NCBI RefSeq assembly: GCF_013912065.1
Contig: NZ_JACESA010000010.1
Span: 1-64,000, forward strand
Length of the DNA stretch: 64,000 bases
Source: Brevundimonas sp.
GTDB lineage: Bacteria > Pseudomonadota > Alphaproteobacteria > Caulobacterales > Caulobacteraceae
Direction: 5' to 3'
Every line of letters starts with the position of its first letter. Positions within the stretch are counted from its first letter, which is position 1. A program made the position numbers and the translations under genes. Under the pieces are notes generated by a model that had not been told where the DNA came from, did no database searches, and saw only the letters and a program-made list of their open reading frames with translations. Shown one piece after another: positions 21,765-25,012 of this stretch.

Positions 21765-22721
21765 TCAGACCGTCTCCGCCGCTCGCCAGTGGTCCATCCG
21801 ACGCAGGAAGACGGCCGGATCCTTGGGCGTCACCAGGTTGGACGGGTCGTGGAAGATCCGGTCGTGCAGGCGCGTCACCGTGAACCGCAAGGCCGCCGCC
21901 TCGCCGAGGCGCGGCAGGGCCGCGCGTTCGGCGTCGCTCAGCGGCCGCACCGCTTCGTAGCCACGCTGGAAGGCGGCCAGGGCCTCGGGCATGGGCCGAC
22001 CCTCGGCGTCGAAGCCCCAGGCCGACAGGGCGACGGCCAGGTCGTAGGCGAAGGCGCCGGTGCAGCCGAAATAGAAGTCGATCACCCCCGAGACCGCGCC
22101 CCCTTCGAACAGGATGTTGTCTGGGAAATAGTCGGCGTGGATCGACCCGGCCGGAAGATCATCCGTAAACGGATCATCTAGCCGCGCCAGAGCCGCCTCG
22201 ACCTGGTCCAGCAGCACCCGGTCCTCGCCCGAGGCGCCGGCCGCGCACCGGTCGGCCAGCCGCCGCCACAGGACCGGCCCGACCGGGTTCTCACGCCGCC
22301 CGCCGAAGCTCTGGGCCGTCTGGTGCAGCCGCGCCAGCACGGCCCCCGCCGCCGCCTGATCCGCCTCCGACGGGCTCCGCAGCCAGGCGCCGGTCTTCCA
22401 TTCGATCACCGCCGCCGCCCGGCCGTTCAACCGCCCCAGCCAGCCGCCCGAGCGGTCCTCGATCGGGGTCGGACAGGGAAAGCCCCGCCCCGCCAGATGG
22501 GCCGTCAGCCCCAGGCAGAACGGCAGGGAGGCCTCGTCCGTCCGGCCCTCGAACAGGGTCAGGACGAACCGCTTCCGGATTTCCCCGGCCTGCGTCTCCA
22601 GCCGATAGTTGGTGTTCTCCACCCCCTCGGCGATGGCGGTCAGCTCGACCACCTCGCCCAGGTCGTAGCCGGCCAGGAACCCTCTGGCCTCGTCCAGGGA
22701 AACGGGAGTGAAGACGGCCAT
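21765..22721 (-). CDS. thrB: Homoserine kinase (aminoglycoside phosphotransferase fold)
   Basis: This enzyme phosphorylates homoserine for ThrC. The 318-residue protein is the type II homoserine kinase common in alphaproteobacteria: VYSLDEARGF-like N terminus (TPVSLDEARGFLAGYDLG), GVENTNYRLET nucleotide loop, FVLTLFEGR, and the kinase catalytic loop IHADYFPDNILF followed by VSGVIDFYFGCTG (Mg-binding Asp). It begins 3 bases after the stop of the fused aspartokinase-homoserine dehydrogenase gene, so it belongs to the operon controlled by the threonine leader. Confidence 0.93.
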   Translation of the reverse strand: MAVFTPVSLDEARGFLAGYDLGEVVELTAIAEGVENTNYRLETQAGEIRKRFVLTLFEGRTDEASLPFCLGLTAHLAGRGFPCPTPIEDRSGGWLGRLNGRAAAVIEWKTGAWLRSPSEADQAAAGAVLARLHQTAQSFGGRRENPVGPVLWRRLADRCAAGASGEDRVLLDQVEAALARLDDPFTDDLPAGSIHADYFPDNILFEGGAVSGVIDFYFGCTGAFAYDLAVALSAWGFDAEGRPMPEALAAFQRGYEAVRPLSDAERAALPRLGEAAALRFTVTRLHDRIFHDPSNLVTPKDPAVFLRRMDHWRAAETV

Positions 22722-22724
22722 GGC

Positions 22725-24476
22725 CTAGTTGAGCCCGGCGTCGGCGCGACGGGCGCGGACGATCTCGGCCAGGTCGGCCATGATGCTTTCCGTCGTCGCC
22801 CAGCGGCCGGCGCCTCGGCCCCGGCAGCGCCACACCCGGCCGTCGGCGCCGTAGACCTTCAGGGCGTTGCCCTCGCCGCGCAGGCTGGAGAACAGCGGGT
22901 CGCCGTGGTCGGCCGTCAACTTGACCGACGGGGTCAGCACCCCGTCCTTCAGATGGGCGGCGCCGATCTGGCGCACCCCGCCTCCGGCGGGGGTAGCGGG
23001 CGTCAGATGATCGCGCGGCGCCTCGCCGTCGGGCGAGCGGCCGAAGGCCTCGTGACACAGCAGCCGCACCTTGGCGGCGGCGTCCAGCCCCTCCAGGTCG
23101 GCCGACGGATCCTCTTCGGCGAAGCCCGCGGCGCGGGCGTCGGCCAGGGCCTCGGCGAAGGCCGCGCCGTCGCCCAGCCGTTCCAGCATGAAGTTGACCG
23201 TGCCGTTCAGAACCGCCTCGAACCCGACCACCTCGCCGGCGGCGCGGGCCGCGCGCACCGTCTCGACCATGGGCGCCCCGCCGCCGACCGAGGCCGACCA
23301 GAAGAGGCGGCGGCCCTTGGCTTTCGCCAGGTCCTGTAGCCCGCCGGGATCGCGGCTGACCGCCTGTTTGTTGGCGCTGGCCACGTCGCAGCCGGCCTCA
23401 AGGGCGGCGCGGATCACCGCATGGCCCGCCTCGCCCTCCGACAGCGCCTCCAGCACGATATCGGGCTTCCTGGCCCAGAGGTCGGCGGCGTCGGCGGTGA
23501 ACAGTTCGCGCGGACAGGCCACGTCCCGCGCCTTCTTCGGATCGCGCACCAGCACCCCGACGACGTCATAGCGCGGGTCGCTGAGCAGCCGGCCAAGCAC
23601 CCCGCCGCCGACGACGCCGCAGCCGGCGACCGCCACCTTCAGCGGCGGCAGGGCGGGCGCCGGTCCCGGCGGGGCCGATTTGTCGCCGATGACCGTGCCG
23701 TCGGCCCGGTCCAGCGCCGCGACCTCGATCTCCACGCCCCGGCTCTCGCCCAGGTCGATGGCGTCGTGCTGGACCAGGGCTCCGCCCAGCTTGCGCGCCA
23801 CGTCCCAGGACGCCCGGCGATAGCGCAGGGCCGGCGCCGTCTTGTCGTTCGGATCATGGTCGTACAGGCCGTCGACATCCTTCACCAGCCGCACCCGGCT
23901 CAGCCCCAGTTCGGCCGCCAGGAAGACCGCCGTCAGGTCCGATCCGCCCCGGCCCAGCAGGGCCACCCGGCCGTCGGGCCGCACGGCGCCGAAGCCCGGA
24001 ACCACCACCACCTCGTGCCGGTCCAGCGCCTGCTTCAGGTGGTCGGGGCGCAGGCCGCAGGGCCGCGAATGCTCGGGCTCGCCCTCGGCGACGATGCCCA
24101 GTTCGCGCACCGACAGGGCGCAGGCGTCCAGGCCGATCCGGTCGCAGGCGATGGCCACCAGGGCCGCCGACTTCTCCTCGCCCAGGGCCACATAGCCGGG
24201 CAGCAGATCGTTGGAATGGGCCAGGCCCAGGCCCCGCGCCTCGCCCAGCAGCCGGTCGGTCGCCCCGCCGAAGGCCGAGACCACCGCCACCACCTTTCGC
24301 CCCGCCCGCACATGGCCATAGACGGCCGAGGCCACCAGGGGCGCCTCGGCCGGGCTGCGCAGGATGGACGAGCCGAACTTCAGCACCACCACCTCGGCGG
24401 CGGCCTGTGCGGCGGCGGGCCGACTGCTGGGGTCGGGGTTCTCGGATTTTTCTACGACGGCGAGGGAGGCGGACAT
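22725..24476 (-). CDS. Fused aspartokinase-like / homoserine dehydrogenase without ACT domains
   Basis: A 583-residue two-domain protein. Residues about 28-265 are an amino-acid kinase: VLKFGSSILRSP, then LLGRGGSDLTAVFLAAELG and VKDVDGLYDHDP, all as in aspartokinases. Residues about 275-583 are homoserine dehydrogenase: VAVAGCGVVGGGVLGRLL (NAD binding), SANKQAVSR, LNGTVNFMLERL and ADLEGLDAAAKVRLL. It could run the first and third steps from aspartate to homoserine. Unlike ThrA of enterobacteria (about 820 residues) it has no ACT domains between or after the catalytic domains, so threonine feedback through ACT is absent. Transcription control by the upstream leader and attenuator would fill that gap. 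thrB follows after 3 bases. Confidence 0.9.
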   Translation of the reverse strand: MSASLAVVEKSENPDPSSRPAAAQAAAEVVVLKFGSSILRSPAEAPLVASAVYGHVRAGRKVVAVVSAFGGATDRLLGEARGLGLAHSNDLLPGYVALGEEKSAALVAIACDRIGLDACALSVRELGIVAEGEPEHSRPCGLRPDHLKQALDRHEVVVVPGFGAVRPDGRVALLGRGGSDLTAVFLAAELGLSRVRLVKDVDGLYDHDPNDKTAPALRYRRASWDVARKLGGALVQHDAIDLGESRGVEIEVAALDRADGTVIGDKSAPPGPAPALPPLKVAVAGCGVVGGGVLGRLLSDPRYDVVGVLVRDPKKARDVACPRELFTADAADLWARKPDIVLEALSEGEAGHAVIRAALEAGCDVASANKQAVSRDPGGLQDLAKAKGRRLFWSASVGGGAPMVETVRAARAAGEVVGFEAVLNGTVNFMLERLGDGAAFAEALADARAAGFAEEDPSADLEGLDAAAKVRLLCHEAFGRSPDGEAPRDHLTPATPAGGGVRQIGAAHLKDGVLTPSVKLTADHGDPLFSSLRGEGNALKVYGADGRVWRCRGRGAGRWATTESIMADLAEIVRARRADAGLN

Positions 24477-24524
24477 CGGGGTTTCTCGGGATCTGGTGGA
24501 TTGGAGCGTGGGGTGAAAAAGAAA

Positions 24525-24552
24525 AACCCCGCCAGGCGGACCGGGCGGGGTT
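24525..24552 (-). terminator. Attenuator terminator of the hom-thrB operon
   Basis: Stem CCCCGCC (24550-24544) with GGCGGGG (24533-24527), extended by AA/TT, then TTTTTCTTTTT in the minus direction. It lies between the threonine leader peptide and the ATG of the aspartokinase-homoserine dehydrogenase gene. Its 5' arm includes CCCGCCC (24549-24543), which can pair instead with GGGCGGG at 24599-24593 inside the leader reading frame, a ready-made antiterminator. Confidence 0.85.
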
Positions 24553-24582
24553 CGGGTTCTGCGGTTGCCGGGGTTCGGCGCG

Positions 24583-24642
24583 CTAAACTCGTCCCGCCCG
24601 TGAGGGCATGGTGGTGGTGGTGGTTCCGCCGGTGGTAATCAT
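24583..24642 (-). CDS. thrL: Threonine leader peptide (attenuation)
   Basis: A 19-codon reading frame, MITTGGTTTTTMPSRAGRV, with seven Thr codons (all ACC), including five in a row, and one Ile codon. It sits 107 bases before the operon's first enzyme gene and is followed by the terminator at 24525-24552. This is the classical layout of a threonine attenuator: when Thr-tRNA is scarce the ribosome stalls at codons 3-11, leaving GGGCGGG (24599-24593) free to form the antiterminator; when it reads to the stop it covers that segment and the terminator forms. No strong ribosome binding site is visible. The gene symbol is by analogy of role; the sequence is unrelated to enterobacterial ThrL. Confidence 0.85.
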   Translation of the reverse strand: MITTGGTTTTTMPSRAGRV

Positions 24643-24760
24643 GCCGAAGCCCGTCGCGGCGAGGCCTGCGACGGTCGAAAGTTCGGCGATGAGCGAGCGC
24701 TGTTGCACAGGGCGGGTCCGGCTGAAATCTGAGCCTAGGGTGATCGGACCGCCCCCGGAC

Positions 24761-24766
24761 TGTCAA
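24761..24766 (-). promoter_or_regulatory. TTGACA -35 element before the threonine leader
   Basis: A perfect TTGACA on the minus strand lies about 120 bases before the leader ATG. The region 17 bases further on (TCACCC, then CCTAGG) is a poor -10, so the promoter is likely but not fixed. Confidence 0.4.
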
Positions 24767-24895: not shown

Positions 24896-25012
24896 CACTC
24901 ATCAAGACCAGCCGAGGGATTAGGCCCTTTGACGCTGGGGCAACCATCGGGTCTTACCGCCCGAAACGGTGCCAACTCCTGCGGGGTCCTTCGGGGTCGC
25001 GAGAGATGAGTG
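24896..25012 (+). ncRNA. SAM-I-like (S-box) riboswitch
   Basis: The 5' leader of metX carries the conserved S-box core in order: P1 arms CACTCATC (24896-24903) and GATGAGTG (25005-25012), the AAGA after the 5' arm, GAGGGATTAGGCCCT, then TGACGCTGGGGCAACC, and ACGGTGCCAACTCC before the 3' P1 arm. These match the SAM-binding aptamer of Gram-positive S-boxes (consensus GAGGGA, GGCAACC, ACGGUGCUAA). SAM binding stabilises P1. The switch precedes methionine biosynthesis genes, as expected. Many alphaproteobacteria use the unrelated SAM-II at this position. Confidence 0.9.

Follow-up and report, generated by a model that had tools for sequence, protein, structure and literature searches.

The hom-thrB operon of Brevundimonas is very probably controlled by a ribosome-mediated transcription attenuator that would respond to charged tRNA-Thr. 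The DNA analysed here, referred to as the window, is a stretch of 64 kb within a 3.5-Mb genome, and its hom gene has its closest relatives in Brevundimonas. Read along the minus strand, TTGACA (24766-24761) is followed by an in-frame GTG (24708), an ATG (24642), a run of threonine codons, a TAG stop codon (24585-24583), a terminator and hom. The features are as follows.

24761..24766, minus strand: TTGACA, candidate -35 element of the leader promoter, with a conserved TTGAC-to-start spacing in 62 of 66 regions
24583..24708, minus strand: probable full leader frame, 41 codons from an inferred GTG start, VQQRSLIAELSTVAGLAATGFGMITTGGTTTTTMPSRAGRV
24583..24642, minus strand: leader frame as proposed earlier, 19 codons from an ATG start, MITTGGTTTTTMPSRAGRV, with seven ACC codons
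24610..24636, minus strand: control codons, two ACC, GGC, GGA, five ACC
24596..24607, minus strand: small hairpin GCCC/GGGC, formed by arm 1 and part of arm 2, in the fold of 24608-24508
24593..24600, minus strand: arm 2, CGGGCGGG, within the last leader codons, pairs with arm 3
24542..24549, minus strand: arm 3, CCCGCCCG, common to antiterminator and terminator
24525..24552, minus strand: terminator stem-loop, 9-bp stem of arms 3 and 4
24516..24526, minus strand: T-rich tail of the terminator, the first two T also closing the stem
22725..24476, minus strand: hom, fused aspartokinase-homoserine dehydrogenase, 583 aa, start ATG 24476, with Pfam AA_kinase and homoserine dehydrogenase domains
21765..22721, minus strand: thrB, homoserine kinase of the thrB_alt type (NCBIfam thrB_alt 309.6 bits, cut-off 255.9)

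The arrangement suggests a model in which RNA polymerase would start slightly 3' of the TTGACA at 24766 and make the leader RNA, with a ribosome following on the short frame. When threonine is ample, the ribosome would reach the stop codon and cover arm 2, leaving arm 3 to pair with arm 4, and transcription would stop before hom. On threonine shortage it would stall on the ACC run and cover arm 1, leaving arm 2 free to pair with arm 3; no terminator would then form and hom-thrB would be transcribed. The frame, its threonine run, the two alternative stems and the terminator are established by sequence and comparison, as are their conservation and the switch seen on masked folding. From these we infer the promoter, the start codon, the act of termination and the dependence on threonine.

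On the other side of the leader from hom lies the divergent gene metX. As metX is divergent and has its own SAM riboswitch, the terminator sits between hom and any promoter serving hom from upstream. The riboswitch (RF00162, 79.2 bits, 24896-25012, plus strand) precedes metX and a cystathionine gamma-synthase-like gene, and is likewise present in five of the eight Brevundimonas relatives scanned.

Leader start, alternative stems and predicted switching

A sequence-only reading of this DNA had proposed a 19-codon frame with seven ACC codons, five of them consecutive. Reading the sequence from ATG 24642 to TAG 24583 confirms this composition, with ACC at codons 3, 4 and 7-11. The ATG itself does not hold as the start, since it is not conserved in relatives (GTC in L022, GCC in L073) and the conserved frame runs in frame up to GTG 24708. 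Translation thus probably begins at GTG 24708, giving a leader of 41 codons of which nine specify threonine, as compared with seven of 19 when counted from the ATG. A script found no in-frame ATG within 30 codons 5' of the threonine-dense stretch in eight of 66 leaders; three of these (L012, L015, L056) have an ATG just inside that stretch, leaving five clear cases that lack one.

The spacing from the candidate promoter element points to the same start. A start-like codon lies in the leader frame 53-60 nt 3' of TTGAC in 62 of the 66 distinct regions (53 GTG, 6 TTG, 2 ATG and 1 CTG; none in L014, L046, L057 and L060), while the other two frames have one at this distance in 0/66 and 3/66. The spacing varies by single bases, which indicates that the match is not simply the product of a shared frame. 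A consensus scan returned no sigma-70-type promoter for the leader, and no Shine-Dalgarno-like sequence is visible by eye before GTG 24708. Leaderless leader frames occur in Alphaproteobacteria, as described for trpL of S. meliloti in the available text of PMC10117765.

The stretch between the GTG and the ATG shows no amino-acid constraint: among 16 distinct sequences, 11 of 54 possible synonymous differences and 29 of 130 possible nonsynonymous ones are seen. This is expected of the N-terminal part if the act of translation alone matters, and is compatible also with an untranslated stretch. Over the leader stretch (24583-24708, minus strand), frame +2 is stop-free in 22 of 22 close relatives as well, so that the absence of stops counts for little on its own here.

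The same earlier reading had paired GGGCGGG (24599-24593) with CCCGCCC (24549-24543), and had noted, beyond the leader frame, a terminator whose tail is T-rich, followed by the aspartokinase-homoserine dehydrogenase gene. All three are borne out. The match between arm 2 and arm 3 extends to 8 bp (24600-24593 with 24549-24542). The terminator spans 24552-24525 with a 9-bp stem, AACCCCGCC (24552-24544) paired with GGCGGGGTT (24533-24525), and its tail reaches 24516. Pfam identifies the gene behind it, and thrB then follows.

Both stems are well preserved in an alignment of 58 rows, comprising the window and 57 relatives, where 94.2% of 464 cells are paired for the antiterminator and 94.6% of cells for the terminator. 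Of the compensatory changes looked for within Brevundimonas, one is seen in the terminator, a single pair of which differs on both sides (CG in 28 and AU in 24 of the 58 rows), and none in the antiterminator, where no pair (0 in 58 rows) has changed on both sides. Applied to the same alignment, RNAalifold recovers both the terminator and the small GCCC/GGGC hairpin, and pairs arm 2 over a short length with CGCGC past the stop codon. Its preference for CGCGC (columns 34-38 with 49-53) over arm 3 as the partner of arm 2 counts against the proposed antiterminator; the covariation term is nearly nil, at -0.5 of -15.1 kcal/mol. In the absence of a ribosome, arm 2 would be taken up by the small hairpin, which the relatives' alignment also contains (pair columns 26-33 and 27-32).

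The effect of the ribosome was modelled by masked folding, which treats the completed RNA at equilibrium, while real attenuation is kinetic. Arm 2 had been proposed to be free when the ribosome stalls at the threonine codons and covered when it stands at the stop codon. In the window a ribosome standing at the stop codon gives a terminator probability of 0.98; stalls at the seven threonine codons give, in order, 0.05, 0.05, 0.92, 0.93, 0.03, 0.01 and 0.09. The proposal therefore stands for the stop codon and for five of the seven threonine codons (0.01-0.09), but not for the two ACC codons at 24624-24619, where a stall leaves the terminator formed (0.92-0.93). Under a strict definition, the terminator probability has to fall to 0.3 or less at some threonine codon and to reach 0.9 or more at the stop; 48 of 66 Brevundimonas leaders pass and 18 fail. 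In controls, 123/660 synonymous-codon re-draws and 57/660 shuffled tails pass.

Conservation and distribution

Ninety-three loci were gathered (L002-L094, some genomes appearing in both searches), and 73 of them were kept, for which identity to hom is 60% or more and the upstream DNA measures 300 nt or more; these give 66 distinct regions. Left out were four loci with no upstream DNA (L026, L039, L061, L076), 14 that are less than 60% identical (L081-L094), and L054 and L063, both also below 60%; L054 has a threonine-dense frame at 335 nt with no terminator, and L063 has none. A threonine-dense frame, defined as at least five threonine codons in 12, precedes hom at 73 of 73 loci, and each of the 66 distinct regions yielded a terminator. 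The sequence-only reading had named a threonine-rich short frame before hom in relatives as its own test, and the prediction holds throughout this set. One locus, of Brevundimonas type, comes from a metagenome-assembled genome titled Bordetella (L025), a label that is probably wrong.

The window's genus is represented by 27 genomes; hom is strongly matched (E < 1e-200) in 16 of them, and the other 11 lack such a match. The combination of threonine-dense frame and terminator is absent from the loci of five of those 11 (L096-L100) and from L095, the second dehydrogenase of a sixth genome; these loci (L095-L100) are 45-58% identical. The four such Brevundimonas dehydrogenases that were scanned (L226, L227, L228, L248) have no aspartokinase domain, and no threonine leader was found before these genes.

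Beyond these relatives, a leader of this kind had been expected in other Caulobacterales. Among 40 further loci of the order, chosen by hom score, a threonine-rich frame and terminator precede a fused hom in 12 of 17 loci of another family, f4 (L119, L121-L131), and three more f4 loci with the leader (L088, L091, L092) bring the count to 15 of the 20 f4 genomes examined, out of a larger f4 set. The same pair of features was found in none of the other loci of the order: 0/7 in f5, 0/5 in f3, 0/4 in g3 and g4, which are two other genera of the window's family, 0/1 in g7 and 0/6 in the window's genus. A few of these loci (among them L115, L120 and L133) have a frame with four threonine codons in 10 with no terminator before the gene. 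The leader is not general in the order.

In all 15 f4 leaders the end of the frame forms a duplex with the 5' arm of the terminator, at -13.5 to -24.7 kcal/mol, values that stand with no shuffle control, and eight of the 15 pass the strict masked-folding test while seven fail. By eye, one pair between arms 2 and 3 is G-C in L088, A-U in L091, L122, L126 and L127 and G-U in nine, and L130 pairs in another register. In the class as a whole a dehydrogenase match occurs in 104 of 142 genomes, and a threonine-dense frame with a terminator in none of the 89 hom upstream regions sampled. The latter comprise 30 loci and 59 further stretches, including one of 482 nt (L211) and one of 347 nt that is probably too short for the gene start (L145).

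Codon content and alternative readings

The leaders are strongly biased in their choice of threonine codon. ACC makes up 357 of the 404 threonine codons in the control stretches of the 66 leaders, as against 60 of 109 in six genes of the window (p = 2e-13, with related leaders counted as independent); for the window's own leader, the comparison of 7/7 with the same six genes gives p = 0.02. Over the 16 codons that precede the last six, the 66 leaders (1056 codons) contain 38.3% Thr, 9.8% Ile and 9.4% Met, and the 15 f4 leaders (240 codons) contain 35.4% Thr, 10.4% Ile and 8.8% Met, relative to a background in hom and thrB of 3.2% Thr, 2.2% Ile and 0.8% Met. As isoleucine and methionine codons are enriched too, the signal may be broader than threonine alone. 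A multivalent switch is conceivable, in which Thr, Ile and Met codons jointly report the end products of the homoserine branch, and the enrichment in both the Brevundimonas and the f4 control stretches speaks for it. We nonetheless consider it the less probable reading, as Ile appears once and Met twice in the window's short frame, one Met being the ATG once taken as the start, and such codons may be neutral, low-structure fillers.

It is unlikely that the terminated short transcript or its peptide acts in trans, beside or instead of attenuation. There is precedent in an alphaproteobacterium, where the available texts on rnTrpL and peTrpL of Sinorhizobium meliloti describe such roles (PMC10117765, PMC7298713), and the strong terminator makes a discrete RNA of ~200 nt likely. 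The N-terminal part of the leader peptide is free of amino-acid constraint, which argues against a trans role, and a trans role alone would leave the threonine codons and both stems unexplained.

We regard it as very improbable that the leader and terminator answer another signal, such as a protein or a metabolite-binding RNA, with the threonine run incidental. Several mechanisms make use of a terminator that has an alternative fold, and the nearby SAM riboswitch on the opposite strand would lend this some support, but no Rfam family reaches its cut-off on the leader strand and the threonine run recurs at 73 of 73 loci and in 15 of the 20 f4 genomes examined.

The rarity of the arrangement was gauged within the 64-kb window by searching stop-ended frames on both strands (n = 2209) for at least five threonine codons in 12 near the frame end and a terminator within 110 nt after it. 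Fifteen frames have the first feature, and the only one with both is the hom leader, with seven threonine codons. In ten first-order Markov windows the two features never coincided, and a single frame reached seven or more threonine codons. A chance meeting of a GC-rich stretch of ACC repeats with an unrelated terminator can effectively be dismissed, for while ACC repeats and GC-rich stems arise easily at this base composition, such a reading is refuted by conservation at 73 of 73 loci and is opposed by the counts of one in 2209 window frames and none in 89 class-wide regions.

Enzyme history and known attenuators

The hom enzymes behind the leader are unusual. ACT domains are the usual route of end-product inhibition in such enzymes, and Pfam detects none in the hom of the window or in L018, L060 and L091. 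An ACT domain was detected in eight of eight class homs scanned and in L229 and L230; several of the ACT scans took in no more than the matched stretch. The genome also carries, at another site, a separate aspartokinase (L224) that does have ACT domains. Loss of the ACT domains as a full explanation of the leader is ruled out by eight ACT-less homs that have no leader (L226, L227, L228, L231, L082, L094, L054 and L248); such loss may permit a leader but does not require one. In a tree of 42 fused enzymes the leader falls in two clades, Brevundimonas (11 rows, from 66) and f4 (15 rows), for which two changes are needed, and a single clade of leader-bearing enzymes is not rejected (p 0.103).

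The thr attenuator design is best known from E. coli, to which Brevundimonas is related only distantly. The gammaproteobacterial thr leader has alternative stems, a terminator and then an aspartokinase-homoserine dehydrogenase gene, as here. The genes behind the leader are of different types, as the Brevundimonas hom has no ACT domains and its thrB is of the alternative type, and the E. coli counterparts differ in both respects. The Rfam family RF00506 (Thr_leader) is defined by its position before an aspartokinase-homoserine dehydrogenase gene, a position which the Brevundimonas leader shares. Within the leader, every Rfam family stays below its cut-off on this strand; Thr_leader itself scores 14.3 bits over 24522-24650 on the leader's strand (E 3.5, cut-off 55) and is the fourth by E-value of five chance-level matches, with three other families better. 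It likewise does not reach the cut-off in any of 15 relatives scanned, and its best score in 12 f4 loci, 31.7 bits in L127 (E 0.0099, top of that scan by E-value), is below the same cut-off of 55. According to the available text of PMC1183508, the E. coli thr leader contains eight ACC codons, and the two leaders are thus alike as short threonine-rich frames built on ACC. An origin of the Brevundimonas leader independent of the gammaproteobacterial thr leaders is plausible.

Attenuator candidates in Alphaproteobacteria offer further comparisons. SEP5 of Sinorhizobium meliloti is a short frame with a threonine cluster in the 5' UTR of an aspartate-pathway gene, and the available text of PMC10117765 suggests it as a possible leader peptide and states that it is conserved only in Sinorhizobium. 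It is unlike the present leader in having six Thr and three Lys codons and in preceding an aspartate dehydrogenase gene rather than hom (PMC10117765). The S. meliloti rnTrpL is also an alphaproteobacterial attenuator with a leader peptide, but it concerns tryptophan and is a leaderless mRNA with its AUG at the transcript start (PMC10117765), whereas the Brevundimonas leader probably starts at a GTG. In Rhodobacterales, uORFC-8-2 is an attenuator candidate with tandem cognate codons, which differs in concerning cysteine and cysS (available text of PMC8632094). In the openly licensed literature we came upon no account of a thr attenuator ahead of a Caulobacterales hom gene, a scope that leaves aside most subscription papers and the attenuator surveys of Vitreschak et al. 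2004 and Lopatovskaya et al. 2010; the same attenuator is not described in the available portions of PMC2965389, PMC3766115, PMC8632094, PMC1262725, PMC1273637, PMC4833913 and PMC10117765.

Our results would place a classical threonine attenuator in two families of Caulobacterales, its kind being known and its lineage one for which no earlier description was found. In the window the methionine branch and the threonine branch begin at divergent genes, under what would be two different RNA switches. The link between the leader and an unusual ACT-less enzyme raises the question of whether transcriptional attenuation replaces allosteric feedback. As a tentative proposal, to which we give considerably less than even weight, attenuation may have taken the place of feedback inhibition in the ACT-less fused enzymes of Brevundimonas and f4, with control passing to a translated leader that senses threonine, and perhaps isoleucine and methionine. 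The leader would then have arisen in two enzyme lineages, converging on the E. coli thr leader even in the preference for ACC. More widely, the distribution opens the question of whether leaders of one design, ACC preference included, evolve again and again.
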